Below, in pieces: positions 1,232 through 32,637 of a DNA stretch of 33,794 nucleotides. The notes under the pieces are model-generated. The model did not search any database and was not told the DNA's origin. It saw only the letters and a program-made list of their open reading frames with translations. Position numbers and translations under genes: made by a program. Numbering within the stretch: position 1 is the first letter of the stretch; each line of letters begins with the position of its first letter. Source of the stretch: an uncultured beta proteobacterium (lineage in GTDB: Bacteria > Pseudomonadota > Gammaproteobacteria > Burkholderiales > Burkholderiaceae_C); NCBI GenBank assembly GCA_903876715.1, contig CAIRBF010000165.1, forward strand, positions 1 to 33,794, read 5' to 3'.

Positions 1232-1270
1232 TTAGTCACCTAAGTCTAGCAAACGGCCGATAGCGATCAA
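1232..1270 (-). promoter_or_regulatory. Promoter and operator of the RidA-amidohydrolase operon
   Basis: Read on the minus strand: -35 TTGATC at 1265-1270, 16-nt spacer, -10 TAGACT at 1243-1248, then the inverted repeat TTAGGTGACTAA at 1232-1243, which shares one base with the -10. Transcription would start inside the repeat, giving a leader of roughly 60 nt before the RidA start at 1172. The same arrangement occurs at 10389-10427, 27026-27066 and 32597-32637. The promoter and operator are read from sequence; binding by the neighbouring MarR protein is inferred. Confidence 0.65.
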
Positions 1271-1356
1271 GTCCCGGTGAAAGGCCCCGGATCAGGAATA
1301 ACCCGCAGCTCACAGCCGCTCCAGGCGGCCCGCGTCAGCCGGTCCGCGCCGCGCGT

Positions 1357-2013
1357 TCAACGCGGCCGACGCAGCGGCGGCAGGGTCCGGTTCCTGGTGA
1401 TCTCGTCCTGCTCGAGGTTCTTCATCATCGCGAGCGCCGTGCGCCGGAAGACCACAAGGTCCTCGGCGGGTATCCCGCTCACGGCTACGGCGTTCAGGTC
1501 CTCTGCCAACGGGATCAACGTGGGCTTCAGCGCCCGCCCCTGAGGCGTGAGCTCGACGCACACGTTGCGCAGGTTGCTGGGCAGCTTCTTGCGGGTCACA
1601 TAACCCAGTCTCTCCATGGCGCGCAAGGCGCTGTAGGTCGTGGGCTCGGTGACGCCCGCCATCTCTGCCAGTTCACGCTGAGTGATCCCATCGTGCTCCC
1701 AAAGGACGCGCAGGAAGGCCCAGTACCCGTGGGAGACCGAATGGTCCATGAGCCGGATCTGCAGGCCGCGCGTCAAAGAGCGCAGCAGTTCCTTGACGAC
1801 GTGGCCCAGCCTGTCGTTGGGAATCGCGTCGCGCCAGTTCCGGCGGGAAGACAGAGGGGCCAGCAACGCCAGGGCGTCAGGGTCCGCAACCGGCGCCGTC
1901 ATGGATTTCTTGCCCTTGCCTGCCCCCCTGCGGCCGCTCGCCAACGGCGCTTCGGGACCCCCTTGCCGGCTGACTTCGGAACTGCGCTTGGAGCGACGGG
2001 TGGAGAGTGTCAT
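1357..2013 (-). CDS. MarR family transcriptional regulator
   Basis: This 218-residue protein contains a MarR winged-helix domain over about residues 65-205. GITQRELAEMAGVTEPTTYSALRAMERLGYVTRKKLPSNLRN is the helix-turn-helix plus wing, followed by a dimerisation helix with VELTPQGRAL. The N-terminal extension of about 40 residues is rich in Arg, Lys and Ser and may not be translated: an in-frame ATG at 1902 (MTAPVADP) would give 181 residues, closer to the family norm. Neither start has a clear ribosome binding site, so the longer form is given. It sits between the PDR-reductase operon and the RidA operon, same strand. MarR proteins in such clusters usually repress and release DNA on binding an aromatic ligand; it is the best local candidate for the TTAG-N4-CTAA sites. 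Confidence 0.9.
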   Translation of the reverse strand: MTLSTRRSKRSSEVSRQGGPEAPLASGRRGAGKGKKSMTAPVADPDALALLAPLSSRRNWRDAIPNDRLGHVVKELLRSLTRGLQIRLMDHSVSHGYWAFLRVLWEHDGITQRELAEMAGVTEPTTYSALRAMERLGYVTRKKLPSNLRNVCVELTPQGRALKPTLIPLAEDLNAVAVSGIPAEDLVVFRRTALAMMKNLEQDEITRNRTLPPLRRPR

Positions 2014-2077
2014 GTGGGCATCGGTTCGAAGACTGCGCCGCCGGGCGGCGGCGGCCTGCAGATTTTCTGGACTTTAC

Positions 2078-2117
2078 TTAGTGTACAGATGGCCGATGTG
2101 AAATTCCGGATCCGGAA
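2078..2117 (-). promoter_or_regulatory. Candidate control region of the marR gene
   Basis: The gap upstream of the MarR gene holds a perfect 14-bp palindrome TTCCGGATCCGGAA at 2104-2117 and, 22 bp closer to the gene, a degenerate copy of the shared operator (TTAGTGTACA at 2078-2087; only one half matches TTAG). No convincing -35/-10 pair was found, so the promoter itself is not placed. The palindrome could be an operator for this or another regulator. Confidence 0.35.
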
Positions 2118-2194: not shown

Positions 2195-3175
2195 TCACAA
2201 GTCCAGCACCAGTCGCGGACTGCGGGCGCGCGAGACGCAGATCATGATCTCGTCCGTGGCATCCTCGTCGAGCACGTAATCCCGATGTTCGGGGATACCG
2301 TCGAGCACGGTGGTGCGGCACGCGCCGCAGGTGCCGCTTTCGCACGAGCTCGGCGCGGGAAGGCCCCGGTCGCGCAGCGCCTGCAGGATGCTGGTGCCGG
2401 CCGCGACCGGAACCTCGAGGCCGCTGCGGGCCAGGCGCACGGTGAACCCCTGCACCGGCGATGGTGCCTGCGGCGCCGCCACGGGTCCGGCGCCGAAGTC
2501 CTCGAAGTGCACACTACCCGCAGGCCAGTGACGGCTGAGGGCCCGCACGGACTGCATGAGCGGCACGGGCCCGCAGCAGTAGAGGTGGGTGCCCGGCGCT
2601 GGCTCCGCCAGCAGGGAGGCAAAGTCGAAGGCCCGTGCGGGATCGCCCAAGTCGTGGTGAAGGCGGCAGTGCGGCGCCACAGCGGGCGCACGCAGCTCAT
2701 CGGCAAACGCCGTCGTCTCGGGCGAGCGGGCACAGTAGACAAGCTCAAAAGGCCGCGGCCCGCCCTTCAGGGCGTGCACCATCGCGACGATCGGCGTGAT
2801 GCCGATGCCCCCGGCGATGAACAGGAAGCGCTGCGCATGCGCGTCCAGCGGGAAGAAGTTCTCCGGCGCGCCCACCGGCAGCAGGTCGCCCACCTGCACC
2901 CGATCGACCAGGCTGCGCGAACCACCGAGACCCTGGGCCTCGCGCTTGACGGCGACCTGGTAGCGGTGGCGCTCACCCGGCGCATTGCACAGGGAGTAGC
3001 GGCGCGTCAGGCCCACGGGAGTCATCACCACGACGTGGGCGCCGGCCTCGAAGGCCGGCAGCAGGTCCGCGCCCGCTGACGGAACCAGGTCGAACAACAC
3101 GATGTCGTGCGCGATCTGGCGCCGGCTGGCCACACGCAGCGTCATCATCGCGCCGGGTTCTTCGGCGCCGCTCAT
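2195..3175 (-). CDS. PDR/VanB family oxidoreductase (reductase of a Rieske oxygenase)
   Basis: This 326-residue protein has the phthalate dioxygenase reductase/VanB architecture: an FMN-binding FNR-like domain (RRYSLCN, residues 58-64), an NAD-binding domain (GGIGITP, 122-128; YCCGP, 199-203) and a C-terminal plant-type [2Fe-2S] ferredoxin domain with cluster cysteines 278, 283, 286 and 313. It would pass electrons from NADH to a terminal Rieske oxygenase such as those encoded at 9075 and 31216. The start at 3175 was chosen over longer options because ATGA overlaps the stop of the upstream dehydrogenase gene, indicating translational coupling. It is the last gene of the operon starting near 10316. 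It is the only such reductase in the window and may serve both oxygenases (inference). Confidence 0.93.
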   Translation of the reverse strand: MSGAEEPGAMMTLRVASRRQIAHDIVLFDLVPSAGADLLPAFEAGAHVVVMTPVGLTRRYSLCNAPGERHRYQVAVKREAQGLGGSRSLVDRVQVGDLLPVGAPENFFPLDAHAQRFLFIAGGIGITPIVAMVHALKGGPRPFELVYCARSPETTAFADELRAPAVAPHCRLHHDLGDPARAFDFASLLAEPAPGTHLYCCGPVPLMQSVRALSRHWPAGSVHFEDFGAGPVAAPQAPSPVQGFTVRLARSGLEVPVAAGTSILQALRDRGLPAPSSCESGTCGACRTTVLDGIPEHRDYVLDEDATDEIMICVSRARSPRLVLDL

Positions 3176-4365
3176 GCCCGACTCCCCCCTCGGACCTCGT
3201 CGATGCCGACCTGGTGCTTCAGCAGCACGTCCCGGCCGCTGGCCGAGGAGGCGAGCGCGGCGTCGCAAACCTCGAGGTTCGCCAGGCCCCAGCGCGCATC
3301 GTGCAGGGCGGGCCGGCGGCCTGTGACGGCGTCGTGGAGTTCATCGAGGACCAGGTCCCGCGGCCCACGGCCTGTGGGCAGCGCGATCTCCCTGCACCCG
3401 GACGCGTCGTAGATCAGGAGCCCGTCTGCAGACTGCCGGATGTCGCCGCGCTCGCAACTCACGAGCGTGATGCCGAAGAAAGGCTGGTGGGGCGACGGCG
3501 ACCAGTCGGCACGACGCGCGCGCGCCTGCTTGGCGCGCAACACCTCCTCTGCCGTCTGGGGGCCCGGCGCCGGGGTGCGCGGGTCGTAGCGCGCCGGCTG
3601 GTGGAAGCCCGACTCGGTGATGCCGAAGCACAGGTCTACACTGGAGAAGCCGCCGTAGCCGTTGTAGACGGCCGTGGCGACGGACTCGTCCTCGAAATCG
3701 AGGTAGGCGACATGCGCGCCCGTGCCCGGGCGCTGCGGGTTCCAGTCGAAGGTGCGCGCCCTCACGCTGCGCACCCGCCCGCCGCACAGCAGACGCAGCA
3801 TGTCGAACTGGTGCGCGCCCTGGCGGTAGGTGACGCCCCCGCCCTGGCCGGCGTCGAGCTCGTCAGGCCGCCGCGGGCGGTGCATCCAGTCCGTGTAGCA
3901 CCAGGTATGGACCATGCGCACGCGGCCGAGTTCGCCACTGGCGACGAGTTCGCGCATGCGCTGCACCGGCAGGTCGTAGCCGTGCGAGTGCCCGACCAGC
4001 ACGGTGCGGTCCGAGCGCCGGGCGGCATCGACCAGAGGCAAGGCGCGCGCCACGTCTTCAGCCATCGGCTTTTCGACCAGCACGTGCTTGCCGGCGGCCA
4101 GGCACTGCAGCACCTGGTCCACGTGGAGGCAGGTCGGCGTGGCGATGTAGACCGCCTGCAGACCGGGGTGCGCGAGCAGGCTGGTCAAGTCGGCATAGGC
4201 GGCCACGCCGTTGTCGCGCGCAATCTCGTCGCGCACGGCCTCCACGCAGTCGGCCACCGCGACGAGTTCGAAACCCGGATGGCGCCGGATCGCTGGCAGG
4301 AACGACCGTCCGGCCGTGCCGAAACCCACGATGCCCATACCGATCGACCCGTCGTGCTCTTGCAT
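3172..4365 (-). CDS. Gfo/Idh/MocA family dehydrogenase, phthalate 4,5-cis-dihydrodiol dehydrogenase-like
   Basis: This 397-residue protein has a Rossmann fold with GIVGFGTAGR at residues 11-20, the family EKP motif at 98-100 and the GGVTYRQGAHQFD active-site region with His185. The C-terminal part FFGITLVSCERGDIRQSADGL resembles, from memory, Pht4-type phthalate 4,5-cis-dihydrodiol dehydrogenases rather than sugar dehydrogenases. The expected role is NAD(P)-dependent rearomatisation of a cis-dihydrodiol made by a Rieske dioxygenase. AAGGA precedes the ATG by about nine bases. It is followed by the PDR reductase with a 4-bp overlap, and lies 63 bp after the ABC ATPase gene. Family is certain; substrate is inferred from resemblance and neighbours. 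Confidence 0.87.
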   Translation of the reverse strand: MQEHDGSIGMGIVGFGTAGRSFLPAIRRHPGFELVAVADCVEAVRDEIARDNGVAAYADLTSLLAHPGLQAVYIATPTCLHVDQVLQCLAAGKHVLVEKPMAEDVARALPLVDAARRSDRTVLVGHSHGYDLPVQRMRELVASGELGRVRMVHTWCYTDWMHRPRRPDELDAGQGGGVTYRQGAHQFDMLRLLCGGRVRSVRARTFDWNPQRPGTGAHVAYLDFEDESVATAVYNGYGGFSSVDLCFGITESGFHQPARYDPRTPAPGPQTAEEVLRAKQARARRADWSPSPHQPFFGITLVSCERGDIRQSADGLLIYDASGCREIALPTGRGPRDLVLDELHDAVTGRRPALHDARWGLANLEVCDAALASSASGRDVLLKHQVGIDEVRGGSRA

Positions 4366-4428: not shown

Positions 4429-5550
4429 CTAGGCGATGCACTGTGGCGCCCGGATGCGCACACGCAAGGCTTGCCCCACCTCGACCGCGAAGGACGGATG
4501 GGCGCGCATGAGCAACTGACGCTCACCGATGCGCAGCTGAAGGTCCAGGCGCTCGCCGAGGAAGACCTTCTGCACGACCACCCCGCTCAGGGTCGTGAAG
4601 CCGTCGTCGACGCCGGTCGCGGGCTCGATGTCCTCCGGGCGGATCGACAGCAGCATCGCCTCGCCGGCGCGCAGCACCCTCGGAGCCTGCACCTCCAGCT
4701 CGCCGACGGGCGTGCCCAGGCGGTAGCGATGCGGACCGGCCGCCGGCCCGAGCACCTGCGCGTCGATGAAGTTGGTCGAACCGACGAAGTCGGCCACGAA
4801 ACGGTTGCAGGGGCGCTCATAGATCTCGCGCGGGGACGCGACCTGCTCGATGCGACCTTCGCGCATCACGGCGATCTCGTGCGAAAGCGCCAGCGCCTCG
4901 CTCTGGTCGTGGGTGACGTAGACCGTCGTCAACCCGAGTTCGCGCTGCAGGCGCTGCAACTCGAAGCGCATGCGTTCGCGCAGCTTGGCGTCGAGGTTGG
5001 ACAGGGGCTCGTCCAGCAGCAGCAGCCGCGGCTCCATCGCCAAGGCCCGGGCCAGCGCCAGGCGCTGCTGTTGTCCGCCGGACAAGGCCGTGGCGTCGCG
5101 CTGCGCGTACGCCTCCAGGCCCACCACCGCGAGCACATGCATCACCTTGTCGTGGATCTGGCGGGCTGCGTGCCGTGCCCGGCTCACGCGCAGCGGGAAG
5201 GCGGCGTTCTCGAAGACGCTCAGGTGCGGCCAGATTGCGTAGGACTGGAACACCATCCCGATGTTGCGGCGGTTGGCCGCGACGAAGACACCGCGCTGGC
5301 TGCACGACACGAGCTCGCCGGCGATGCTGACCCGCCCCGCCACCGGGCGCTCCAGGCCGGCGATGCAGCGCATCGTCGTGGTTTTGCCGCAGCCGCTGGG
5401 GCCGAGCAGCGTGAACAGGCTGCCCTCGCGCACCGCGAAGTCCACACCCTGGACGGCGCGCACCACCCTACCCTGCGCATCGACATAGTTGGCCTGCAGG
5501 CCCTCGACCTGCAGAAGCGCGCCAGACCCCGGCTCAGAGCTGCTTGACAC
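4429..5550 (-). CDS. ABC transporter ATP-binding protein, iron(III)/organic anion type
   Basis: This 373-residue ATPase has Walker A GPSGCGKT at 50-57, Q-loop VFQSY near 100, signature LSGGQQQ at 156-162, Walker B LLLLDEP at 176-182 and a C-terminal TOBE-like domain (SIRPEDIEP onward), as in FbpC/PotA-type importers. It would energise uptake through the fused permease encoded just upstream. The start is GTG at 5550, preceded by GGGAAG, overlapping the permease stop by 17 bases. The binding-protein, permease and ATPase genes form a complete importer inside the Rieske operon, so its substrate is more likely the aromatic growth substrate or a related organic anion than iron; this is inference. 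Confidence 0.93.
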   Translation of the reverse strand: MSSSSEPGSGALLQVEGLQANYVDAQGRVVRAVQGVDFAVREGSLFTLLGPSGCGKTTTMRCIAGLERPVAGRVSIAGELVSCSQRGVFVAANRRNIGMVFQSYAIWPHLSVFENAAFPLRVSRARHAARQIHDKVMHVLAVVGLEAYAQRDATALSGGQQQRLALARALAMEPRLLLLDEPLSNLDAKLRERMRFELQRLQRELGLTTVYVTHDQSEALALSHEIAVMREGRIEQVASPREIYERPCNRFVADFVGSTNFIDAQVLGPAAGPHRYRLGTPVGELEVQAPRVLRAGEAMLLSIRPEDIEPATGVDDGFTTLSGVVVQKVFLGERLDLQLRIGERQLLMRAHPSFAVEVGQALRVRIRAPQCIA

Positions 5551-7264
5551 CGTACTTCCCGCCCAACCATTGCGCCACCATGACGAGGAACAGCAGCGCG
5601 ACCATGAACATCACCCCGAGCGCCGACAGCTCGACGAGCTGACCGGCCTCCCAGAGTTCCCACACGACGATGGCCAGCACCTCGGACCCCGGGCTGTACA
5701 ACAAGATCGACGAGGACAGCTCACGCATCGAGACGATGAGGACGAAGATCCAGCCGGCGAGCAGGCCTGGCTTGAGCAGCGGCAGCACGATGCGCCGGAA
5801 GGTGGCGCCCCAGGAGGCGCCGGACATCTGCGCCGAGTCCTCGAGCTCCTGGTGGATCTGCAGCAGCGCCGTGGTGTTGTAGCGCATCCCGTAGGGCATG
5901 AAGCGGGTGACGTAGGCCAGCAGCAGGATCCACAGCGTGCCGTAGATGCCGACGTCGAAGTTCAGGAAGAACACCATCATCGCCAGACCCACCACCAGAC
6001 CCGGCAAGGCGATGGGCAGCGAAGCCAGTTGGTCCAGCAACCAGCGGCCCGGCCAGCGCGTACGCACGACGATCCAGCAGACCACCGAGGTCAGCAGCAT
6101 CACCAGCGTGGCGCTGCCCAGCGCGAGCAAGACGCTGTTGCGCACCGCGGGCCAGAAATTGTCATGGCCGAGCACGGCCCGGTAAGGGTCCAGCGTCAGG
6201 TTCCGCAGCGCCTCCAGCGACGGCACCGCGTAGAAGCTCTGGAACGACGACCAAAGCAGCACCAGGAAGGGCAGCAGCACGATGAGGGCGAAGTAGACGA
6301 CGAACACCGCCGCCGTCAGGTAGCGCCAGCGGCCCAGGTCCAGAACCCGCGGCCGGAAACCCTTGCCCGTGACCGTCACGTAGCGCCGGGAATGGCGCGT
6401 CACCCGCGACTGCAGGTAGATGCCGAGCGCGGCCACCACCAGCAGCACGGTGGCGTAGGCGGACGCGAGACCGATGCGGCTGGGATACTGATGGATCGCC
6501 TGGTAGATGGCCGAGGTGTACACCTGCAGGCCCACGGGCAGCCCGATCAGCGCGGGGACCTCGAAGGACTCGATGGCGCGGATGAACAGGATCAGCAGCG
6601 TGGCCACCGCCGCGGGCCAGCTCAGCCTCAGGCTGATGCGCCGTGCCACCTGCCAGGTGCTGGCGCCGCTCATCAGGGCCGACTCCTCGAGCGAGGGGTC
6701 CATGGAGCGGAAGGCGGCGCTCATGATCAGGAAGGCCACCGGCGAGTAGTGCAGGCCGTCGACCCAGATCATGCCGCCCATCGAATACACGTTGACGAAC
6801 ACGTGGCTGGTGCCGGTGAGCGTCTGCAGCGCGAGGTTCACCAGGCCGATCTTCGGGCTGGCCAGCAGGATCCAGGCGATCGTGAAGAGGACACCCGGCA
6901 CGATCAGCGGCACGACGCTCAGCGCGTAGAACAGCCGCTTGAAGGGCGTGTTCGTGCGCTCGTTCATCCAGGCCAGCAGCGTGCCGACAGCGAAGGCCAG
7001 CAGCGCCGTGCCGCCGGCGAACACCAGGGAATGGCCCAGCAGGCGGCCCGTGTCCGCCGCCCCGAGCGCCTCGCGGTGGTTGTCCAGCGTCAGCACGCCG
7101 GCCGTCGCGGCGGTGCCCGGCGTGTGCACGCTCTGCCACAGGAGGTAGAGCAGCGGCACCAGGGCGAGGAAGGCCACCACGGCCACGCTGGCGCCCAGCG
7201 CCAGCCAGCGGGGCTCGAAAACCCGGCCCAGGCGCCCGGCAGCAAGAGTGCCGGAAGTGGTCAC
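5534..7264 (-). CDS. ABC transporter permease, two fused membrane domains (FbpB-like)
   Basis: About 576 residues with roughly twelve hydrophobic segments in two homologous halves, each ending in a binding-protein-dependent permease EAA loop (LEESALMSGASTWQVARRISLRLSWPA in the first half, LEDSAQMSGASWGATFRRIVLPLLKPG in the second). Such duplicated permeases are typical of iron(III), thiamine and 2-aminoethylphosphonate importers. The start chosen is GTG at 7264, because its GTGA overlaps the stop of the binding-protein gene and AAGAAGG lies six bases upstream. A longer form starting at 7306 lies inside the upstream gene and is less likely. It would act in the inner membrane with the ATPase encoded at 4429. 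Confidence 0.92.
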   Translation of the reverse strand: MTTSGTLAAGRLGRVFEPRWLALGASVAVVAFLALVPLLYLLWQSVHTPGTAATAGVLTLDNHREALGAADTGRLLGHSLVFAGGTALLAFAVGTLLAWMNERTNTPFKRLFYALSVVPLIVPGVLFTIAWILLASPKIGLVNLALQTLTGTSHVFVNVYSMGGMIWVDGLHYSPVAFLIMSAAFRSMDPSLEESALMSGASTWQVARRISLRLSWPAAVATLLILFIRAIESFEVPALIGLPVGLQVYTSAIYQAIHQYPSRIGLASAYATVLLVVAALGIYLQSRVTRHSRRYVTVTGKGFRPRVLDLGRWRYLTAAVFVVYFALIVLLPFLVLLWSSFQSFYAVPSLEALRNLTLDPYRAVLGHDNFWPAVRNSVLLALGSATLVMLLTSVVCWIVVRTRWPGRWLLDQLASLPIALPGLVVGLAMMVFFLNFDVGIYGTLWILLLAYVTRFMPYGMRYNTTALLQIHQELEDSAQMSGASWGATFRRIVLPLLKPGLLAGWIFVLIVSMRELSSSILLYSPGSEVLAIVVWELWEAGQLVELSALGVMFMVALLFLVMVAQWLGGKYGVKQL

Positions 7265-8322
7265 CGCGCCTTCTTGATGAAGGCTTCGTCGTACATCTTC
7301 AACCACCGGTCCTGGCGATCGAGGGCCTGGACGGCATCGATCAGCTTGAAGGTCGGCAGCTTGTTCAGATGGGATTCGACCTTCCGGCTGGTCGGACCGT
7401 AGTCGGCGTCGGCCATGATCTTCTGGCCCTCGCCGAGCACGAAGTCGTAGAACAGCGTGGCGGCATTGGGGTTGCGGGCCTTGGCCATGACGGCCACGGC
7501 TGCCGGGTAGGCGAACAGCGGCTGCAGATACAGCCCTTCCACCGGCGCCCCCTTGCGCTTGAGCTGCTCGGGGTTCCAGCTGTAGACCGTCAGCGCCAGC
7601 GGCACCTCCCCCGAAGCCACCATGCCGGCGAGTACCGAGTGGCCCTTGCGCACCGAGATGCCGTTGACGGAGACGATGGTGTCGAACAACTTGCGCGCCA
7701 CCTCCTCACCCATCTCGGCGCTCAGAGCCCCCCACCAGATGTGGTCGTTCGCCTCGACGGCGAGCTTGCCCTTCCACTTCGGGTCGGTCAGGTCCTGGTA
7801 GGACTTCGGCAGGTCCTCCTTGCGGACCAGGCGGGTGTTGTAGGACGCCGTGAACACGTCGAGGTTGAAGGCCGCCCACTGGTGGTGCGCCGGCACCGCG
7901 CCGGAAATCAGGTCGGCTTGCACCGAGGAGCGGACCTCCTGCAGCAGCTTCTCGCGCGCCGCAGCCTCGGTGTCCGCGGAGGTGCTGAGGAAGACGTCGA
8001 CCTCGTGGCGGCCGGCACGCGACTCGGCGAAAATACGCTGCATGATCGCCTCGGAGCCGGCCCGCCAGAGCTTGACCTTGATGCCGTGCTTGCGCGTGAA
8101 GGCCTCGGCCATGTCCTTGACGATCGGGTGTGCGTAGTAGACGGAGAGCTCGCCCTCCTTCTTCGCGCCGTCGAGCAGGCGCGCCTGGCGGTCCGCCCCC
8201 TCGTAGGTGGCGACCTGGGCCACAGTGCGCCCGTCCTTGCCGGCCTGGGCCCAAGCCGCCGGCAGCGCCTGCGACAACAGGACGGCCAGCGGCAGCAGCA
8301 GCCGGATTCGGGAACCCTTCAT
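7261..8322 (-). CDS. Periplasmic substrate-binding protein, family 1 (iron/organic anion type)
   Basis: This 353-residue protein begins with a Sec signal peptide (MKGSRIRLLLPLAVLLSQALPAAWAQA, likely cleaved after AWA), followed by the two-lobed extracellular solute-binding fold seen in FbpA/AfuA-like and phosphonate-type proteins (KDMAEAFTRKHGIKVKLWRAGSE; PKSYQDLTDPKWKGKLAVE; ATLFYDFVLGEGQKIMADADYGPTSRKVES). The paired-tyrosine motif expected for iron in true ferric-binding proteins is not evident, supporting an organic substrate. AAGGAG lies upstream of the ATG. It is the first gene of the transporter trio in the Rieske operon, 43 bp after the class II aldolase gene. Confidence 0.91.
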   Translation of the reverse strand: MKGSRIRLLLPLAVLLSQALPAAWAQAGKDGRTVAQVATYEGADRQARLLDGAKKEGELSVYYAHPIVKDMAEAFTRKHGIKVKLWRAGSEAIMQRIFAESRAGRHEVDVFLSTSADTEAAAREKLLQEVRSSVQADLISGAVPAHHQWAAFNLDVFTASYNTRLVRKEDLPKSYQDLTDPKWKGKLAVEANDHIWWGALSAEMGEEVARKLFDTIVSVNGISVRKGHSVLAGMVASGEVPLALTVYSWNPEQLKRKGAPVEGLYLQPLFAYPAAVAVMAKARNPNAATLFYDFVLGEGQKIMADADYGPTSRKVESHLNKLPTFKLIDAVQALDRQDRWLKMYDEAFIKKAR

Positions 8323-8365: not shown

Positions 8366-9070
8366 TCACCGCGGAACGAGGCGCAGCTTGCGGCGCAGGT
8401 ACTCGAAGTTGATGCCGTACTGTTCCGCGGTGTTCATGTCACGGTGCAGGCGCTGGACCAGCTCGGGCGCGAACAGCTCGCCGACTCCGCCGCCAGCCAT
8501 GGCGAGCAGCTGGATGCGGCAGGCGGTCTCGAGCGTCAGGGCCAGGATGGTGGACTCCTCGATCGACGCGCCGACGACCGCCACGCCGTGGTTGCGCATC
8601 AGCACGGCCTTGTGCGGGCCCAGCGCCTGGGCCAGCGCCGCGCCCTTCTGCGGCGAGCGGATCAATTCGATCGTGTCCGTGTAGACCGGCAGCCCGTCAT
8701 GGAAGGTGACCGCGGGCTGGCTGATGGGCAGCAGGGGCCGGCACGTGGCGGAGAAGGCGACCACATGGGTCGGGTGCGTGTGGATGACGCTGTGGACGTC
8801 CGGCCGGACCTTGTAGATCTCCGAATGGATGTAGACCTCGCTGTGCCGACGCCCGCCGCCGGCGATCTTCTCGCCGCCGAGGTTGCAGACGACGATGTTT
8901 TCGGCCGTGATCTCGTCGAAGCCACGGCTGTGCGGCTTCATCAGGAAGTGCGTCGGATCGCCTGGCATGCGCACCGATATGTGGCCGCGGGTCAGGTCCC
9001 CTTGGCCGTCGGCATCGATGATGTGGCCGGCGTCGATGAGCTTGCGGCAGATGTCGTCGAGCGTGTCCAT
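8366..9070 (-). CDS. Class II aldolase/adducin family protein
   Basis: This 234-residue protein has the zinc-binding residues of class II aldolases: His97 and His99 in VIHTHPTH and His161 in RNHGVAV, with Glu78 in RHSEVYIHSEIY as the probable acid/base. Members cleave sugar phosphates (fuculose-1-phosphate aldolase, ribulose-5-phosphate epimerase), but relatives in aromatic pathways are decarboxylases, for example of dihydroxyphthalate. Given its place four bases after the Rieske oxygenase gene, decarboxylation or retro-aldol cleavage of a hydroxylated product is more likely than sugar metabolism. The start at 9070 begins the conserved domain (MDTLDDICRK); longer in-frame options run into the upstream gene. 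The substrate is unknown. Confidence 0.9.
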   Translation of the reverse strand: MDTLDDICRKLIDAGHIIDADGQGDLTRGHISVRMPGDPTHFLMKPHSRGFDEITAENIVVCNLGGEKIAGGGRRHSEVYIHSEIYKVRPDVHSVIHTHPTHVVAFSATCRPLLPISQPAVTFHDGLPVYTDTIELIRSPQKGAALAQALGPHKAVLMRNHGVAVVGASIEESTILALTLETACRIQLLAMAGGGVGELFAPELVQRLHRDMNTAEQYGINFEYLRRKLRLVPR

Positions 9071-9074
9071 GGCC

Positions 9075-10388: not shown

Positions 10389-10427
10389 TTAGAGACCTAA
10401 CTCTAACAAAGACCCTGCATAGATCAA
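10389..10427 (-). promoter_or_regulatory. Promoter and operator of the Rieske-ABC-dehydrogenase operon
   Basis: On the minus strand: -35 TTGATC at 10422-10427, 16-nt spacer, -10 TAGAGT at 10400-10405 and the inverted repeat TTAGGTCTCTAA at 10389-10400 sharing one base with the -10. The leader to the Rieske start at 10316 would be about 75 nt. Spacing and repeat position are identical to the promoter at 1232-1270. The gap contains nothing else recognisable. Confidence 0.68.
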
Positions 10428-19600: not shown

Positions 19601-19634
19601 GTCATGCCTTCCCAATGCGACCCGAGCCCGTGCC

Positions 19635-20468: not shown

Positions 20469-21274
20469 CACTCTCCGCCCGAGGCCCGGGGCCGCCAGGC
20501 ATCGAAGCGGCGCTCGATCCGGTCCAGCCCCTCGGTCGTCAGCAGCCCCGCCAGCACGACCAGCAGCACGCCCACGAGCATCTTGTCGGTCTGCAGCGAG
20601 TTGGCCGAGGTGGCGATGAAATAGCCGATGCCCGCCGTCGCCGCGTACAACTCGCCCACGATCACGCCCAGCAAGGCCCGGCCCGACCCGTACTTCATGC
20701 CGGAGAAGACGAAGGGCACGGTGCCCGGCAGCACGATGGTGGCGAAGATCCGCGGCTGGCTCGCGCCGAAGCTGCGCGCCACGCGCAGGAAGCGCTCCTC
20801 GCTGGTGCGCACGCCCGCGCAGGTGCTGATCAGGATGGGGATCACGGCGCCGAGGAAGACGACGATGATCTTGGACCAGATGCCGATGCCGAACCAGATG
20901 ATGATGACCGGCAGCAGCGTGATGCGCGGGATGGTGTTGAGCGTGTGGATGAAGGGGCTGAAGAACCAGTACAGCCGCCGGTACCACCCCACCGCGAGAC
21001 CGAAGGGCACGCCCACGGCGATGGCCATCAGGTAGCCGACCAGGAACTCGGTGGCGCTCACCAGCATGTCGGCGCGGAACTCGGCCGACGACAGCACCTC
21101 GACCGCGGCCAGCGCCACCATGCTGGGCGCGGAGATGAACTGCGGGTTGACCCAGGCCAGGCGGAACGCCACCTCCCACAGAAGTAGGAAGGCCAGCAAC
21201 GTGCCGCCGGCGTAGACCGCGCGTTCGTGCCGCTGCAAGAAGCCGGTATCGGTGCGCACCGAATGCCTCCTCAT
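20468..21274 (-). CDS. ABC transporter permease (SsuC/TauC type), copy 1
   Basis: A 268-residue inner-membrane protein with an N-terminal hydrophobic segment (AVYAGGTLLAFLLLWEVAF) and the EAA loop VRTSEERFLRVARSFGASQPRIFATIVLP. Similarity to the following gene extends along the whole length (VGVPFGLAVGWYRRLYWFFSPF versus VGIPLGLAVGWYRRLGHALEPF). It lies 12 bp after the hydantoinase A-like gene and overlaps the second permease gene by one base, so the transporter is co-expressed with the HyuA/HyuB-like enzyme. Confidence 0.92.
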   Translation of the reverse strand: MRRHSVRTDTGFLQRHERAVYAGGTLLAFLLLWEVAFRLAWVNPQFISAPSMVALAAVEVLSSAEFRADMLVSATEFLVGYLMAIAVGVPFGLAVGWYRRLYWFFSPFIHTLNTIPRITLLPVIIIWFGIGIWSKIIVVFLGAVIPILISTCAGVRTSEERFLRVARSFGASQPRIFATIVLPGTVPFVFSGMKYGSGRALLGVIVGELYAATAGIGYFIATSANSLQTDKMLVGVLLVVLAGLLTTEGLDRIERRFDAWRPRASGGE

Positions 21275-21286
21275 GTGGGGACTGGG

Positions 21287-23341: not shown

Positions 23342-25092
23342 GCCGCGACCTCCGCGCCCGCGCGCAACGCGGCCGTCGCCTGCGCATCGACCTCCAGCGT
23401 CAACGGGTCGAGGGCCACGCCGTACTCCGACCGCGCCGCCTCCAGGCTCACATAGCCGCAGACGACATCCTGGCGGACGCGCTCGGGGTCCCGCGTGAGG
23501 GGGTCGCCCCAGCCGCCGCCGCCGGCCAGCCGCCAGCTGATCACTTCGCCGGCCTGGACACGCAGCGCCGCGGTCTTCGAATGCAGCGCCCGCTCGTCCG
23601 CCTGCCCCGGGTTCAGGAGCGCGCCCCCGGGCCGCGCGGGCCGGGCCCCGAGCGCGCCTGGGGAGGCGTGCTTGAAGCGGTCGGTCCGCAGGTTGAAGAA
23701 CAGCTCGTTCTCCAGCACCCGCCAGTCGCGCCGCGTTCCCAGGCCGCCGCGGAAGCGGCCGGCGCCAGCGGAATCGGGCAGCAGCTCGTAGCGCTCGATG
23801 CGGATCGGGAACTCGGTCTCCATCGCCTCGACCGGCGTGTTCATCACGTTGATCACGAGCTCGTCCTGCGCGCTCACGCCGTCGTCGTGCGGGCGCGCCC
23901 CGCCGCCGCCGTTGTAGATCTCGTGGAAGGACGACCAGCGCCCGGTGCGCGGGTTGTGGCCCGAGCCGGTGAGGCCGCCGCTGGCAGCGCTGCCCGGCGC
24001 AGGGATGCGGCCCGGCGCCACCCGACCGAGGACACGACAGCACACAGAAGCCACCATCTGGCCGGCGCGCACGTACATGTTCACGGGCGCGGGGTAGCGC
24101 GGGTTGAGCAGGGAGCCTTCGGGCGGAAAGGTGATGTCGACGACCCGGCGCATCCCGTCGTTCACGGGCAGCTGCGAACCGAACGCCATCTTGACCCAGC
24201 ACTCCAGCACCGTGCGCGACACGCAGGGCCGCAGGTTCAGGGGACCGTGCGCCTGGCTGTCGCTGTCGAGGATGAAGTTCAGCTTGTCGCCCTTGATCTC
24301 GAGCGAACAGGTGATGCGCAGCGGGCGGTCGCGCGACGCGCCGTCGTCGTCAAGCCAATCCGTCTCCGGCCCGTACACGCCGTCAGGCAGCTTGGCGATC
24401 TCCTTGCGCAGCTCGGATTCGCAGATGTCCATCCAGCGGCTCCAGCAGGCCTGGACCTTGTCCACGCCGTGCTTGCGGAACAGGGCACTGAACTTCTGCA
24501 CCCCGTAGACATTGGTCTGGGCCTGTGCGTTCACGTCGCCCCAGGTCACGTCGGGCGTGCGCGTGTTCGCGAGGATGATCTCGTAGACGTCCTGGTTGAG
24601 CTCGCCGGCGATGAACAGGCGCACCGGCGGCAGCAGCAGCCCCTCCTGGAACACCTCGGTCGCGGCCGGGCTGTTCGTGCCAGGCACCATGCCGCCGAAA
24701 TCCGGCTTGTGCGCGGTATTGCCGATGTAGGCCGCCAACCGGCCTTCGAAGAACACCGGCGAGATCACCGTGACATCCGTGGCGTGGTTCTGGCAAGCCC
24801 GGTACGGGTGGTTGACGATGATCGCGTCGCCCGGCTGCAGCCTGCCGTGGAAGACGCGATGGACCTCGCGCACCTGCGCCGAGATCGGGCCGATGTGCAG
24901 AGGCTGCGGGATGCCCTGGGCCACGAGCCGCGCCTGCGGGTCGAAGATGCAGAAGGTGAAGTCCTGGCTCTCCTTGATGACGTTGGAGTAGCCCGTACGC
25001 ATCATGTTGACCGTCAGCTCCCGGGCGATCTGCTGGGTGGACTGGTAGATGACTTCCAGGTCGATGGCGTTCAAGGCGATGTCCGTCGGCAA
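23338..25092 (-). CDS. Hydantoinase B/oxoprolinase family protein
   Basis: This 584-residue partner of the HyuA-like subunit has the family landmarks LEVIYQSTQQIARELTVNMMRTGYSNVIKE, PGDAIIVNHPYRACQNHATDVTVISPVF, NTAHKPDFGGMVPG and the C-terminal GGAGRFRGGLGTRRDWRV and AGGGGWGDPLTRDPERV segments. The reading frame given starts at a TTG codon at 25092 without a clear ribosome binding site; another TTG six codons in (position 25074) would also retain the whole domain. The substrate-binding-protein gene lies 75 bp upstream. Coupling to a taurine/nitrate-type importer suggests that the imported compound, or a product of it, is the substrate. Confidence 0.92.
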   Translation of the reverse strand: MPTDIALNAIDLEVIYQSTQQIARELTVNMMRTGYSNVIKESQDFTFCIFDPQARLVAQGIPQPLHIGPISAQVREVHRVFHGRLQPGDAIIVNHPYRACQNHATDVTVISPVFFEGRLAAYIGNTAHKPDFGGMVPGTNSPAATEVFQEGLLLPPVRLFIAGELNQDVYEIILANTRTPDVTWGDVNAQAQTNVYGVQKFSALFRKHGVDKVQACWSRWMDICESELRKEIAKLPDGVYGPETDWLDDDGASRDRPLRITCSLEIKGDKLNFILDSDSQAHGPLNLRPCVSRTVLECWVKMAFGSQLPVNDGMRRVVDITFPPEGSLLNPRYPAPVNMYVRAGQMVASVCCRVLGRVAPGRIPAPGSAASGGLTGSGHNPRTGRWSSFHEIYNGGGGARPHDDGVSAQDELVINVMNTPVEAMETEFPIRIERYELLPDSAGAGRFRGGLGTRRDWRVLENELFFNLRTDRFKHASPGALGARPARPGGALLNPGQADERALHSKTAALRVQAGEVISWRLAGGGGWGDPLTRDPERVRQDVVCGYVSLEAARSEYGVALDPLTLEVDAQATAALRAGAEVAA

Positions 25093-25167
25093 AGGATGGG
25101 CAGGACGGCCGACCCCACAGGCGACATGGCGCCTGACGGGGAGGCTTCACACGTTCGGAGCCGGGGC

Positions 25168-26187
25168 TCAGATACCGTAGCGCTTCTTCATCTCGTCGAA
25201 GAAGCCTTCCTTGCGCAGCGCCTCGACGATGCTCAGGTCCACGTACTGCGCCGCGTCGCGCGAGGACAGCGCCGGGCCCATCGTGTGGACCTCGTTGATG
25301 ACGTTTCCGACGGCGGCCGCGCTGGGCGTGAAGTCACGCGGGTAGAACCGCTTCAAGGTGTCGTAGGCGTCGTCGATCACGGCTTTGGAGGTGGTCTTGA
25401 ATTCCTTGGCGATGACCTCGCGCGCCCACTTTTCGTCAGACAGCGCCTTGTAGATGCCCTCGACGTTGGCCTTGACAAAGCGCTTGAGCAGGTCGGGGTT
25501 GGACTTCAGCACATCGCGGCTGACGACCAGGCCGTTGAACACCCAGGGTGCGCCGTCCTTGCCCAGGTCCACGAGCAGGTTCAGGCCCCGCTCCTTGGCC
25601 ATCGCCGTGGCGGGCGAGACATAGGGCGCCGCCAGCACCTGCCCCGACATCTGCGCCGCCAGGCGCTGGGAGGCCCCGCCGAGCGGGACCACCGTGACGT
25701 CCTTGCGCGTGAGCTTGAGCTGCTGCAGCGCCAGGCTGACCGCCATGTCGCTTTCCGAGGTGAACGCACTGACGGCGATCTTCTGGCCCTTGAGGTCGGC
25801 CGCCGACTTCACGTTCGCGTTGACATAGATGTCCATCGGCATCACGTTGCTGCTCGACGTGATCAGGCGCAGGTCGGCCCCCTCGCGGTTGGCGTTGACG
25901 GCCACCGAGAAGCCCACCTGCATCGCCTGCAGCTTGCCGGCCAGCAGCACCTGCACCCCTCGCGATCCTCCCTCGATGGTGACGAGCTCGGCCTTGATGC
26001 GGTGGTTGGCGTAGGTCCCTGCCGCCTGAGCGAAGCGCGGTGCGAGCGAGGTGATGTCGCCGGGCACCAGGCCGACGGCAAAAGCATCCTGGGCGAAGGC
26101 TGGGGAGGCCGCGCCAAGACCCAGCGCCAGGCCGGCCGCGGCGAACACGGCCCGACGCCGCAGAGAGATCTTCGAGGTGTGCTTCAT
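25168..26187 (-). CDS. ABC transporter substrate-binding protein (NMT1/TauA/SsuA type)
   Basis: A 339-residue protein with a signal sequence (SLRRRAVFAAAGLALGLGAASPAFAQD; the RRR-plus-hydrophobic stretch could be Sec or Tat) followed by the NMT1/THI5-like fold: SLAPRFAQAAGTYANHRIKAELV, GGSRGVQVLLAGKLQAMQVGFS and SAADLKGQKIAVSAFTSESD, typical of taurine, nitrate and sulfonate binding proteins. AGGAG lies seven bases before the ATG. It supplies ligand to the permease pair encoded downstream, although the hyuBA-like genes come in between. The ligand cannot be read from sequence. Confidence 0.92.
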   Translation of the reverse strand: MKHTSKISLRRRAVFAAAGLALGLGAASPAFAQDAFAVGLVPGDITSLAPRFAQAAGTYANHRIKAELVTIEGGSRGVQVLLAGKLQAMQVGFSVAVNANREGADLRLITSSSNVMPMDIYVNANVKSAADLKGQKIAVSAFTSESDMAVSLALQQLKLTRKDVTVVPLGGASQRLAAQMSGQVLAAPYVSPATAMAKERGLNLLVDLGKDGAPWVFNGLVVSRDVLKSNPDLLKRFVKANVEGIYKALSDEKWAREVIAKEFKTTSKAVIDDAYDTLKRFYPRDFTPSAAAVGNVINEVHTMGPALSSRDAAQYVDLSIVEALRKEGFFDEMKKRYGI

Positions 26188-26227: not shown

Positions 26228-27013
26228 TCATGACACGGGCAGGCGGGCCACACCCCCGCGCTCGCTGTCCTCGAGCAGCCGCACGTAGTGTCGCCAGGTC
26301 CACTTGAACACGTCGGCACCATGGGCCTGAGCCTTGCGATCCTGGGTCTCGCGCAACCGCCGGAAGTACTCGGCGTCCTCGGGGCTGATCGGTTGCGGCC
26401 GGCCGCCGGCACGCGCGATCTCCAGCGTGATGCTGGCCAGCGTCTCGAGCTGGATCGCGCGGATCGTGGCCTCCTGCACCGAAGCGCCCGTCGCCACGGT
26501 GCCGTGGCCGCGCAGGATGCACACCGGCTTCATGCCCAAGGTGCGCGCCAGCTCCGCGCCCACGGCGCGCTCGCGTACCAGGATGGAACGCGGGAAGATG
26601 GGCACGCCGTCGACCGACAGCGCCATCGCATTGGGGTCGAAGGCGCCGAAGAGGGGTTGCAGCTCCAGCCCCAGCAGGGTACAGACCAGCGAGGCGCGCG
26701 GGTGGGCGTGAACCACGGCACGCACGTCGGGCCGGGCGCGGTAGATCTCGCCGTGGATCGGCAGCTCGGTCGGCGTCTCGTACGACCCGGCGCCGTCGAG
26801 ATGGGCACCGTCGAAATCGACACGGCGCACCGCCTCGGCCTGGGTGTGGACCAGGCCAGCCTCGAGTTGACCGCGGCAGCGGATCAGCATGCGCTGATCG
26901 TCGAGCCGCGCGCTCACATGGCCGGTGGTCTCGCGCACCAAGCCCAGGAAGGCCAGAAGCCGGCACGCGGTCGCTATCGTCTCCTCGACGGGTTCGGGCG
27001 CGACTTCCGTCAT
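26228..27013 (-). CDS. Class II aldolase/adducin family protein, decarboxylase-like
   Basis: A 261-residue protein with zinc-site residues His102 and His104 (VVHAHPRA) and His170 (LRGHGTV), and Glu83 in PTELPIHGEIYRARPDV as acid/base. From memory the overall pattern (GHVSARL near 31, LIRCRGQLEAGL, a long C-terminal tail) is closer to the aromatic-acid decarboxylase branch, such as 3,4-dihydroxyphthalate decarboxylase, than to sugar-phosphate aldolases, but this needs a tree. AAAGGAG lies six bases upstream of the ATG. It heads the transporter/HyuAB operon and is directly preceded by the shared promoter-operator. Confidence 0.88.
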   Translation of the reverse strand: MTEVAPEPVEETIATACRLLAFLGLVRETTGHVSARLDDQRMLIRCRGQLEAGLVHTQAEAVRRVDFDGAHLDGAGSYETPTELPIHGEIYRARPDVRAVVHAHPRASLVCTLLGLELQPLFGAFDPNAMALSVDGVPIFPRSILVRERAVGAELARTLGMKPVCILRGHGTVATGASVQEATIRAIQLETLASITLEIARAGGRPQPISPEDAEYFRRLRETQDRKAQAHGADVFKWTWRHYVRLLEDSERGGVARLPVS

Positions 27014-27025
27014 GTCGGCTCCTTT

Positions 27026-27066
27026 CTAAGGAATCTAATCCTAAACAGCGTCCTGTCCTGCGTCAA
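27026..27066 (-). promoter_or_regulatory. Promoter and operator of the aldolase-HyuBA-ABC operon
   Basis: On the minus strand: -35 TTGACG at 27061-27066, 17-nt spacer, -10 TAGGAT at 27038-27043 and the imperfect repeat TTAGATTCCTTA (27027-27038), which shares one base with the -10 as in the other three copies. Transcription would begin near 27031, only about 18 nt before the ATG, so a bound protein would also cover the ribosome binding region on the DNA. Confidence 0.62.
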
Positions 27067-30126: not shown

Positions 30127-30188
30127 CACCCGGGTGCGGCGGCCCGGGGAGCAGCGCCCGGGCGCGCCCGAAGACTGGACCGCCATCC

Positions 30189-31184
30189 TCAGATCTCGAG
30201 CGTGGACGGCGCGAACACCTCCTCCACGGCGATGCGGCGCTCGGTCAGGCCCTGCTCGTGAAGGTACTGGGCGATGGTCTCGATCACCTTGCGCGAGGCC
30301 TTCATGCCGTAGCCCTTGGGGTCGGCCTGCAGGCCCTGACGACCGGCAGGATCGATCAAGCCGGTGTCGAAATACGACTGCAGGGTCTCGGCGGTGTCGC
30401 GCTCGACCTCCTTCTTCGCCGCAACGAAGGCATGGAAGAGGTTCAGCGCCAGCCAGGGGTGGCGCTCGTGCAGCGAGCGCTTGATGACTACGGCGTGGTT
30501 GATCGGGTAGATGCCGGTCTTGGCGTAGTAGCGCCGGGTCTCGGCAGGCTTGTCGGGAAACAGCGGCTGGATGACCTCGTGCGCCGACAGATCGAGCGTG
30601 CTGCGGTCGACGAGGTTGCGGTTGTTCAGGTAGAGCAAGGTGGCGTCGAGTTCGCCCGACACCAGCATCTCGCCGATGTTCGTGCTGGGCGGGATCTGGT
30701 TCAGCCGCACGCCGGGCGGCGGCTGGAAGCCGGTCGCGCCGCCGTGGCTCTTGTCGGGGCCACGCTCCATGAACCACTCGATGTCACGCGCGGGCACGCC
30801 GAACTCGTGCTCGAGGATGCCGCGCGACCACAGCGCAGCCGTCTGCTGGTATTCGGGCACGCCCACACGCTTGCCACGCAGGTCCTGGGGGTGCGCGATC
30901 CCGCGGTCGGCGCGCACGAGGATGTTCGTGTGGAAAAAGCTGCGCGAGGTGTAGATCGGCAGGGCCACCCAGTTGCGGTCGCCGCGGGCGGTGGCGATGA
31001 ACAGCGACGACAACGACATCTCCGAGATGTCGAAGTCGCCGAACTTCAACTGGCGCCAGAACATCTCCGAAGGGTGGACGACCGTCGGTATGAGGCGCAC
31101 GCCCTGGGGCTGGAAGCGACCCTGCGCGATGGGGCGCGTGCGCTCGTTGTCCGACAAGGCGATGCTCAGGTTCAGCGTTTCCAT
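30189..31184 (-). CDS. 4,5-dihydroxyphthalate decarboxylase-like protein
   Basis: A 331-residue protein resembling Pht5-type 4,5-dihydroxyphthalate decarboxylases, which share the periplasmic-binding-protein fold but act in the cytosol. Key stretches are LSIALSDNERTRPI, the PSEMFWRQLKFGDFDISEMSLSS segment, LRGKRVGVPEYQQTAALWSRG and SGELDATLL. There is no signal peptide (METLNLSIALSDNERT), supporting an enzyme rather than a transport protein. It would remove a carboxyl group from a dihydroxylated aromatic acid, for example yielding protocatechuate. GGAGAA lies upstream of the ATG. It directly follows the phthalate-dioxygenase-like gene (31 bp gap), consistent with consecutive steps. Confidence 0.85.
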   Translation of the reverse strand: METLNLSIALSDNERTRPIAQGRFQPQGVRLIPTVVHPSEMFWRQLKFGDFDISEMSLSSLFIATARGDRNWVALPIYTSRSFFHTNILVRADRGIAHPQDLRGKRVGVPEYQQTAALWSRGILEHEFGVPARDIEWFMERGPDKSHGGATGFQPPPGVRLNQIPPSTNIGEMLVSGELDATLLYLNNRNLVDRSTLDLSAHEVIQPLFPDKPAETRRYYAKTGIYPINHAVVIKRSLHERHPWLALNLFHAFVAAKKEVERDTAETLQSYFDTGLIDPAGRQGLQADPKGYGMKASRKVIETIAQYLHEQGLTERRIAVEEVFAPSTLEI

Positions 31185-31215
31185 TCAGGTTCTCCGGCAG
31201 ACGGGATCAGGGGAC

Positions 31216-32532
31216 TCAAACCGCCACCGCGGTCGTGGCGGGATCGCCCACCCGCGCGCCGACGAAGTCGAAACCGCGCCAGTCGGCTCCCTTGGGCAAC
31301 AGGCCCTCGAACGACGTGATCTGCGCCTGCGGCCGGGTCAAGGTCGCGTGCGAGCCGAGCGCGGGCTCGCCGCCCTGGAAGCGCCGCACCGCCTCCAGCA
31401 TCGAGCGGCGGAACTCGACGATGGCCAGGTCGCTCGCGCCCAGGCGCTCGCTGCTGCGGTCGACGATCGGGCCCATGCTTTCCCACATCGCGATGTCCTG
31501 GTTCGCGATGCCCTCGATCCCCGAGAAATTGCCGTTGCGCATGGCCAGGCGGTTCTGGCCGTAGTCGTTGGCGGCGTTGCGCGCGAGCTTGCGGTAGCCG
31601 CGGTCGAGGTCGATGCCCACCTGCGCGCGCATGAACTTGCGGTACTCCTCCTGGTCGAGCGCGCCATCGCGGGCCTGCGACCAGGAGATGAAGTGGAACG
31701 CGGTGTGCGTGTCGTCGATGGGCACGTTGACGTTGGCCGAGTTGTACTGCGCGTTGGGCGGGATCAGCGCCGTGAACGGTGCGACGAAGATCGTCATGCG
31801 CACGTAGTCCTGGAGGTCCGCGTTCTGGATCGGGCGTCGGATCGCAGCGTACTTGAACCCGTACTCGGTGGCCTGCACCTGGATGCGCGGGGCCTTGTCG
31901 GTGGAGGGACGCTGCATCATCGTGCCGGCCCGGTGCATCGTGCCGCTGACGCGCGCGGGAACGATGTCCGAGGAATGCAGGGAGGAGCTGTGCGCGGAGT
32001 CGATCGCGCCCTCCAGCACCTGGGCCCAGTTGCAGTCCACCACCATCTTCACGATACTCACCTTGGTGTCCGCGTTCGGCGCCCAGGGGGGCGGCGCGAA
32101 CTCGGGCATGGTCTGCGGCGGCCCCATGTAGGTCCACACGACGCCGGCATGCTCGTGCGTGGGATAGGCCCTGATGCGCACCTTGTCCACGAGCGCGCTC
32201 TGCGTCGGCTCGGAAGGCATCTCGACGGCCTGGCCGTGGATGTCGAACTTCCAGCCGTGGTACAGGCAGCGCAGGCCATGGGACTCGTTGCGTCCGTACA
32301 CGAGCGAAGCCTTGCGGTGCGGGCACCGGCGCGCCATCAGCCCGACCCGACCGTCGGAGTCGCGCCAGGCCACCAGATCCTCGCCCAGCAGGCGCACCGG
32401 CACCGGCGCGCCATCGGGCTCGGGCAGTTCCTCGCTCAGGCAGGCCGGGAACCAGTGGCGTCGCATCAACTCCCCCATCGGCGCATCACCCTCGACGCGA
32501 CAGAGCAGGTCGTTCTCTTCGGGCGTGAGCAT
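31216..32532 (-). CDS. Rieske oxygenase, phthalate 4,5-dioxygenase-like
   Basis: A 438-residue alpha subunit with Rieske ligands C70/H72 (CPH) and C89/H92 (CLYH) and the mononuclear-iron site in NWAQVLEGAIDSAHSSSLH (Asp178, His181, His186). The start MLTPEENDLLCRVEGDAPMG and the RRCPHRKASLVYGRNESHGLRCLYHGWKFD segment closely resemble Pht3/OphA2-type phthalate 4,5-dioxygenases. ATG 32532 was chosen over the one six bases upstream because AGGAG lies eight bases from it and homologues start MLTPEEN. No reductase gene lies in this operon; the PDR reductase at 2195 is the probable partner. Product would be a cis-dihydrodiol for the dehydrogenase at 3172 (inference). Confidence 0.94.
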   Translation of the reverse strand: MLTPEENDLLCRVEGDAPMGELMRRHWFPACLSEELPEPDGAPVPVRLLGEDLVAWRDSDGRVGLMARRCPHRKASLVYGRNESHGLRCLYHGWKFDIHGQAVEMPSEPTQSALVDKVRIRAYPTHEHAGVVWTYMGPPQTMPEFAPPPWAPNADTKVSIVKMVVDCNWAQVLEGAIDSAHSSSLHSSDIVPARVSGTMHRAGTMMQRPSTDKAPRIQVQATEYGFKYAAIRRPIQNADLQDYVRMTIFVAPFTALIPPNAQYNSANVNVPIDDTHTAFHFISWSQARDGALDQEEYRKFMRAQVGIDLDRGYRKLARNAANDYGQNRLAMRNGNFSGIEGIANQDIAMWESMGPIVDRSSERLGASDLAIVEFRRSMLEAVRRFQGGEPALGSHATLTRPQAQITSFEGLLPKGADWRGFDFVGARVGDPATTAVAV

Positions 32533-32596
32533 GGACATGTCTCCTGGTCGGCGAGAAGCCGCAGCCCCGGACCATCGATAGCGGGGGGGGTTATAT

Positions 32597-32637
32597 ATTA
32601 GTCGTCTAATAATGCCAATGATTCGACCCTGCGTCAA
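32597..32637 (-). promoter_or_regulatory. Promoter and operator of the phthalate-dioxygenase-like operon
   Basis: On the minus strand: -35 TTGACG at 32632-32637, 17-nt spacer, -10 CATTAT at 32609-32614 and the inverted repeat ATTAG-ACGA-CTAAT at 32597-32610, the most symmetrical of the four copies. The core TTAGACGACTAA (32598-32609) again shares one base with the -10. The leader to the oxygenase start is about 70 nt and is locally AT-rich, followed by a run of C residues on this strand. Confidence 0.7.

Follow-up and report, generated by a model that had tools for sequence, protein, structure and literature searches.

A candidate MarR operator shared by four operons for phthalate-type catabolism in an uncultured beta proteobacterium

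Bacterial phthalate gene clusters can carry a MarR-family regulator. We analysed a 33,794-nt contig of an uncultured beta proteobacterium (hereafter the window; coordinates are window positions), in which a MarR-family gene, marR (1357..2013, minus strand; Pfam MarR PF01047), lies among phthalate-type genes, and four promoters share a TTAG-N4-CTAA-like palindrome. Such a regulator is annotated as OphR in the phthalate cluster of Methylobacillus V29b, in a primer table that cites Han 2008 (PMC5031561), and as phtR in that of Sphingobium yanoikuyae SHJ (PMC6051330). In both sources the MarR gene likewise appears alongside genes for a phthalate dioxygenase, a dehydrogenase and a decarboxylase; the passages concerned are limited to annotation and name no operator, and we liken the window regulator to OphR and PhtR by gene company. 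Unlike in these clusters, the window genes are divided among four operons, and two ABC importers, a second Rieske oxygenase and hydantoinase-type genes are present as well.

Other described regulators resemble the window system in part. CbaR, reportedly characterised by Providenti and Wyndham in 2001, is a MarR-like regulator of cbaABC chlorobenzoate catabolism; it likewise governs a Rieske system related to phthalate dioxygenase, but its substrate is chlorobenzoate and not phthalate. Comamonas sp. E6 has two dedicated regulators of phthalate-isomer catabolism, TphR and the isophthalate-responsive repressor IphR; they differ in serving isophthalate and terephthalate and in being of the IclR type. 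CouR of Rhodococcus is a MarR repressor acting at several catabolic promoters via one inverted repeat, which may serve two divergent promoters, but that repeat (cATTGA-N5-TCAATg) lies over the -35 box and the ligand is p-coumaroyl-CoA (PMC4737184). MarR_73/IadR is a MarR repressor of the Variovorax auxin-degradation locus, and thus also of an aromatic-degradation locus, but with indole-3-acetate as ligand and a site between iadR and iadA (PMC9613470). MarR regulators in phthalate clusters and MarR repressors that use one repeat at multiple promoters are already known, and the regulon proposed here is of an ordinary bacterial kind. We found no description of a TTAG-N4-CTAA operator in the literature searched, partly seen and with most subscription journals outside its coverage.

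From the observed sequence, position, conservation and gene company of the palindromes, we propose, with a probability of roughly 0.8, that the operons of the window form a regulon for phthalate-type aromatic acids under repression by the local MarR, with the palindrome as its putative operator.

Promoter-operator elements in the window and the source genome

A sequence-only reading of the window had described four promoters, each with -35 and -10 boxes 16-17 nt apart and a TTAG-N4-CTAA-like repeat, and all four are present on the minus strand where it placed them. Site 1 (1232..1270, operator 1232-1243) consists of TTGATC-16-TAGACT with TTAGGTGACTAA and heads the ridA-like and amidohydrolase genes (operon 1). 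Site 2 (10389..10427, operator 10389-10400) consists of TTGATC-16-TAGAGT with TTAGGTCTCTAA and heads the operon of the Rieske oxygenase gene Rieske_a (operon 2). Operon 3, which starts with a PhtC-like gene, is headed by site 3 (27026..27066, operator 27027-27038; TTGACG-17-TAGGAT with TTAGATTCCTTA), and operon 4, which starts with a phthalate-dioxygenase-like oxygenase gene, by site 4 (32597..32637, operator 32598-32609; TTGACG-17-CATTAT with TTAGACGACTAA). The fixed register that had been noted also holds: at 4/4 sites the repeat begins on the final base of the -10 box. The palindrome is exact at sites 1, 2 and 4, and the operator of site 3 is one base off in one half-site. The site 4 -10 box, CATTAT, is atypical, and the site 1 promoter scores 8/12 and was missed by a stricter promoter scan (at least 9/12), which found none in the region 1000-2300. 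Exact TTAG-N4-CTAA was observed three times in the window, against a mean of 0.003 and a maximum of 1 in 300 random sequences with the dinucleotide frequencies of the window.

The source assembly contains 5,582,208 bases (5.58 Mb) in 505 contigs. A genome-wide scatter of matches had been named as an outcome that would speak against a common operator; our palindrome search found no such scatter, as the exact motif occurs at three places in the genome and 3/3 are inside the 33.8-kb window contig. A further 18 places appear when one mismatch is allowed, a single one of them, site 3, in the window. A promoter of at least 8/12 stands in register at two of these 18, site 3 (9) and C82:8536 (8), while about 0.4 of the 17 places outside the window would be expected in register by chance, from a background rate of 1/40.

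The C82:8536 site, TTAGATGAATAA behind TTGCCC-17-TAGGAT, directly precedes a dehydrogenase gene whose product has 4,5-dihydroxyphthalate dehydrogenase as its best solved match (7wzd, 276 bits) and is 38% identical to the Gfo/Idh dehydrogenase of the window. Next to it come genes for TctC, a Rieske protein and a class II aldolase, the latter two products being 41% and 35% (over 173 residues) identical to their operon 2 counterparts. This operon on contig C82 is probably a further member of the regulon. It was picked by the site rule alone, as the sole in-register place among the 17 one-mismatch places outside the window, and we regard it as the finding's best single test.

A MarR scan of named genomes gave one locus (L079), in a Rubrivivax sp. 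metagenome-assembled genome (G299) whose MarR is 70% identical to that of the window. G299 has four exact palindromes, three of them at promoters orthologous to sites 1, 2 and 4; site 3 is kept as TTAGATAACTTA, and the C82:8536 site is also kept. Across the four sites, aligned and counted by eye, 32/32 half-site positions are unchanged between the source and G299 and 5/16 N4 positions have changed, with site 1 among those affected; the flanks of site 1 align poorly. The fourth exact G299 site has, within its 3 kb, no homologue of any of the 21 window proteins used in the search. Identity between the marR product and its G299 counterpart is only about 70%, compared to 88-98% for neighbouring operon proteins.

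The stretch between marR and ridA in G299 (L079 10835-11122) retains pieces of both ends of a Rieske_a gene, corresponding to residues 1-42 and 366-411 with an identity of about 74%, while in the window only about 60 bases separate site 1 from ridA. The location of these end pieces between site 1 and ridA suggests that site 1 derives from a duplication of the site 2 promoter, and comparison of the two loci indicates that it probably arose by duplication of this promoter plus the first gene, which later decayed. Since sites 1 and 2 are probably related in this way, these two are not fully independent.

Association of the palindrome with the MarR regulator

The marR product has a MarR winged-helix domain (PF01047, 4.9e-12, 46 bits, cut-off 24.6), and its gene lies beside phthalate dioxygenase, reductase, dihydroxyphthalate dehydrogenase and decarboxylase-type genes, as for OphR/PhtR-type regulators, making it a candidate repressor of that type. 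The four residues of the recognition segment E-P-T-T are conserved, in that order, in 41, 44, 41 and 41 sequences of an alignment of 45 MarR-like proteins, distant ones included. Membership of HpaR was rejected (38.8 bits against an NCBIfam cut-off of 121.2). There is a distant match (37 bits) to chain 7kym, which we take to be MarR_73.

We searched 299 family genomes, drawn from a larger group, for the MarR (E<=1e-15) and for Rieske_b, the oxygenase of operon 4 (E<=1e-120). MarR matches were found in 30 genomes, including the source genome, and Rieske_b matches in 25, all of which also carry MarR (25/25). In 21 of the 25 oxygenase genomes, source included, the Rieske_b or reductase gene has an exact palindrome no more than 400 bp upstream. 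Inspected by eye, the other four also have sites at operon heads, bringing the overall count to 22 exact and three one-mismatch: in G175 an exact site stands about 540 bp upstream, ahead of a hemerythrin-like gene located before Rieske_b, G063 and G124 each carry a one-mismatch site immediately upstream, and G150 has a one-mismatch site before a TctC-like gene heading the operon. Across the 30 MarR genomes, 31/79 exact sites are within 10 kb of marR and 35/79 within 25 kb, although the 25-kb zones make up at most 1.65 of 135.6 Mb (~1.2% of the DNA). Elsewhere in these genomes the density of exact sites is 0.36/Mb (beyond 10 kb) or 0.33/Mb (beyond 25 kb), and 30 genomes without a MarR match have 49 exact sites in 126.6 Mb, 15 of these in one genome.

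The association extends to plasmids. MarR matches were identified in 78 plasmid records, and 9 of the 15 loci listed were opened, from Polaromonas, Variovorax, Acidovorax, Massilia, two Caballeronia, Pseudomonas luteola, Thalassospira and Sulfitobacter. At least one exact palindrome occurs within about 20 kb at each of the nine loci, which together have 14 sites, so that marR-adjacent palindromes on plasmids span alpha-, beta- and gammaproteobacteria. The sites are within 400 bp of an oxygenase or reductase gene at 5/9 loci (L164, L165, L167, L169 and L170); Sulfitobacter has two, one just before the reductase gene and one just before the oxygenase gene. Among cultured relatives, Polaromonas naphthalenivorans CJ2 carries a related cluster on a plasmid. 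Elsewhere a site precedes the hemerythrin gene heading the cluster (L163), lies between an MFS gene and marR (L166) or precedes a citrate synthase gene (L168), and locus L162 carries no annotation. The sequence-only reading had named the local MarR as the obvious candidate regulator of the sites, a proposal supported by the 25/25 co-occurrence, the clustering of sites near marR and the presence of the palindrome beside plasmid marR orthologues.

The register between promoter and palindrome was evaluated at 40 exact sites from marR or oxygenase loci of 24 genomes, including the window and G299. The register described for the window (offset 0) was the best of 41 offsets tried, with a mean score of 7.2 and 17/40 sites at 8/12 or above. 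By comparison, 40 background sites from elsewhere had a mean of 5.6 and 1/40 at 8 or above, and the next-best offset was +1, at 33%. These scores suggest a recurring promoter-operator design.

At four loci (L048 7396, L053 12484, L059 12419 and L112 8176) the palindrome lies between divergent oxygenase and reductase genes. In these four of the 40 sites, -10-like hexamers abut it on both sides, scoring at least 8/12 each way. TA at the first two -10 positions was seen on both sides at 8 of 54 sites, on one side at 16 and on neither at 30, while the counts for 40 background sites were 0, 6 and 34. Genes for nadC/quinolinate phosphoribosyltransferase recur beside phthalate genes (L163, L164, L169 and L111), which fits a reported link between this enzyme and growth on phthalate (PMC6051330).

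Genes of the four operons

All genes of the four operons are on the minus strand. Operon 4 begins with Rieske_b (31216..32538), a phthalate 4,5-dioxygenase-type oxygenase matching 7fjl/7v25/7v28 (labelled Rieske domain protein) at 614 bits over residues 3-424; we take these structures to be the phthalate dioxygenase of Comamonas testosteroni KF1. The next match is 7fhr, named putative phthalate 4,5-dioxygenase, at 258 bits. The second gene (30189..31184) encodes a protein with a periplasmic-binding-protein fold, 38% identical to a Polaromonas protein annotated as 4,5-dihydroxyphthalate decarboxylase. Downstream of it, 29776-30186 is a short reading frame with no Pfam match at E 0.01, perhaps a remnant.

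Operon 2 contains, from its first gene, Rieske_a (9075..10316), a LigXa/phthalate-dioxygenase-like oxygenase; the class II aldolase family gene AldII_a (8366..9217); ABC importer 1 (4429..8322), comprising a solute-binding protein (7261-8322), a permease (5534-7306) and an ATPase (4429-5550); a Gfo/Idh/MocA dehydrogenase resembling 4,5-dihydroxyphthalate dehydrogenase (3172..4365); and a phthalate dioxygenase reductase-like gene (2195..3175), whose best PDB match is the phthalate dioxygenase reductase 2pia (325 bits). The dehydrogenase matches 7wzd (4,5-dihydroxyphthalate dehydrogenase) at 269 bits, with 3moi, a 'probable dehydrogenase', level at 271. Rieske_a matches 7fjl at 185 bits, split over two stretches, and AldII_a falls below the NCBIfam PhtC cut-off (91.8 bits against 200); judged by these matches, both appear to be more distant relatives of phthalate enzymes, and the substrate of Rieske_a is uncertain.

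The first gene of operon 3 (26228..27013) encodes a PhtC-like decarboxylase with a class II aldolase fold, which passes the NCBIfam cut-off for PhtC, 3,4-dihydroxyphthalate decarboxylase (DhpthDcsPhtC, 252.7 bits against 200). The rest of the operon (18788..26187) comprises an SsuA/NMT1-like solute-binding protein (25168-26187), HyuB (23338-25092), HyuA (21287-23341), two ABC permeases (about 19635-21274), the second of which (about 19635-20468) was assigned by similarity to the first and not by Pfam, and an ATPase (18788-19600). Operon 1 contains a RidA/endoribonuclease L-PSP family gene (780..1172) and an amidohydrolase_2 family gene (1..738) cut by the contig end. The matches of Rieske_b, the reductase, the dehydrogenase, the PhtC-like protein and the product of 30189-31184 suggest that the regulon is of the phthalate type. 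An auxin (iad) locus was rejected, as the reductase scores 175 bits to 7ylr, presumably IadC, against 325 to 2pia.

A plus-strand module at 12161-18750, with the C-terminal part of an AMP ligase, MeaB, methylmalonyl-CoA mutase, a TPP enzyme and a GntR/FCD regulator, is separate; considered as a part of the regulon, this module (12.1-18.7 kb) was found to contain no exact TTAG-N4-CTAA.

Contig C420 of the same assembly (L111 1640-8244) has a second set of oxygenase, decarboxylase-like, reductase and dehydrogenase genes, whose products are 62%, 39%, 55% and 39% identical to those of the window, respectively. It also has TctC and quinolinate phosphoribosyltransferase genes, and no regulator was found among the ten C420 reading frames scanned.

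Proposed mechanism, alternatives and meaning

Under the proposed mechanism, an OphR/PhtR-type MarR dimer would bind each palindrome by placing a winged helix on either half-site, covering about -7 to +5 and stopping RNA polymerase from opening the promoter. A phthalate-type ligand or early catabolite, a guess from gene content, would bind the repressor and release it, turning the operons on together. The induced functions would be uptake via the two ABC importers and ring dihydroxylation by the Rieske oxygenases and reductase, together with rearomatisation by the Gfo/Idh dehydrogenase and decarboxylation. As marR is located downstream of the reductase gene in operon 2 and itself lacks a good operator, it is probably transcribed from operon 2, and read-through from site 2 would place it under negative autoregulation.

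A wider reading, to which we give a little less than an even chance, is that TTAG-N4-CTAA is the conserved operator of a phthalate MarR clade across alpha-, beta- and gammaproteobacteria, that a single palindrome pivots face-to-face promoters in several family genomes, and that the operator has spread to at least five operons here. In the face-to-face design, with -10 boxes abutting the palindrome on both sides, one dimer would shut both promoters and the polymerases would exclude each other. The spread would have occurred by duplication and recruitment, such that one sensor drives at least two parallel oxygenase/decarboxylase branches and two importers.

Several observations weigh against a MarR-repressed regulon with this operator. 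The upstream region of marR contains a two-mismatch candidate at best, with no match seen in the G299 stretch, and the second phthalate cluster, on C420, has neither an exact nor a one-mismatch TTAG-N4-CTAA. No strong promoter stands in register at 23 of the 40 sites, and only 1/14 plasmid sites scores at least 8 in register. No exact site is found at 8/30 MarR loci (L050, L055, L061, L064, L065, L068, L070 and L073). Two of the eight have a one-mismatch site at an operon head (L050 and L068) and two lie on contigs just 8.5 and 10.5 kb long (L055 and L070), while the lack of an exact site is unexplained at L061, L064, L065 and L073. Furthermore, the sites are related by descent, so that p-values are optimistic.

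The eight loci without an exact site could also indicate that the palindrome is a real shared operator of a regulator encoded elsewhere, with the local MarR acting on something else. We consider this improbable, as MarR is a constant companion of the sites in the 25/25 oxygenase genomes, and the Thalassospira and Sulfitobacter plasmid loci, whose feature tables are incomplete, have the site and list no other regulator near the phthalate genes, the sole exception being a Thalassospira helix-turn-helix protein ~10 kb away beside a RelE/ParE-type toxin gene. There is a similarly small chance that MarR binds the sites as an activator or dual regulator and not as a plain repressor. Activators usually bind upstream of -7 to +5, and the palindrome, lying over about these positions, is downstream of where they would be expected. 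Activating MarR proteins are nevertheless known in aromatic catabolism, and BhbR2 binds over the -35 box (PMC12016517).

The resemblance between sites could, in principle, simply reflect promoter segments having been duplicated recently, with no selection for a common regulator. Sites 1 and 2 do look like copies, given the Rieske_a end pieces between site 1 and ridA in G299. We nonetheless regard this as very unlikely, because half-sites are held while N4 and flanks drift (in one pair, source against G299), and sites 3 and 4 and those of relatives sit in differing contexts. Least credible are chance or low-complexity matches: the promoters are AT-rich, the motif has only eight fixed bases, and sites occur elsewhere at ~0.3-0.4 per Mb, but the window has three where 0.003 are expected and the density near marR is more than fifty-fold higher. 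We reject a chance origin based on the genome-wide exclusivity of the exact motif, its clustering near marR and the random-sequence expectation.

A MarR-repressed regulon of this kind would link ~18 genes, those of two importers included, to phthalate-type catabolism. For the widespread MarR clade found in the company of phthalate dioxygenases, the palindrome would be a candidate operator. In one review, phthalate biosensor work is described as mostly concerning terephthalate, and o-phthalate clusters as a resource for new sensors (PMC13040137). The MarR/TTAG-N4-CTAA pair, a short and testable repressor-operator pair, would be one such sensor.

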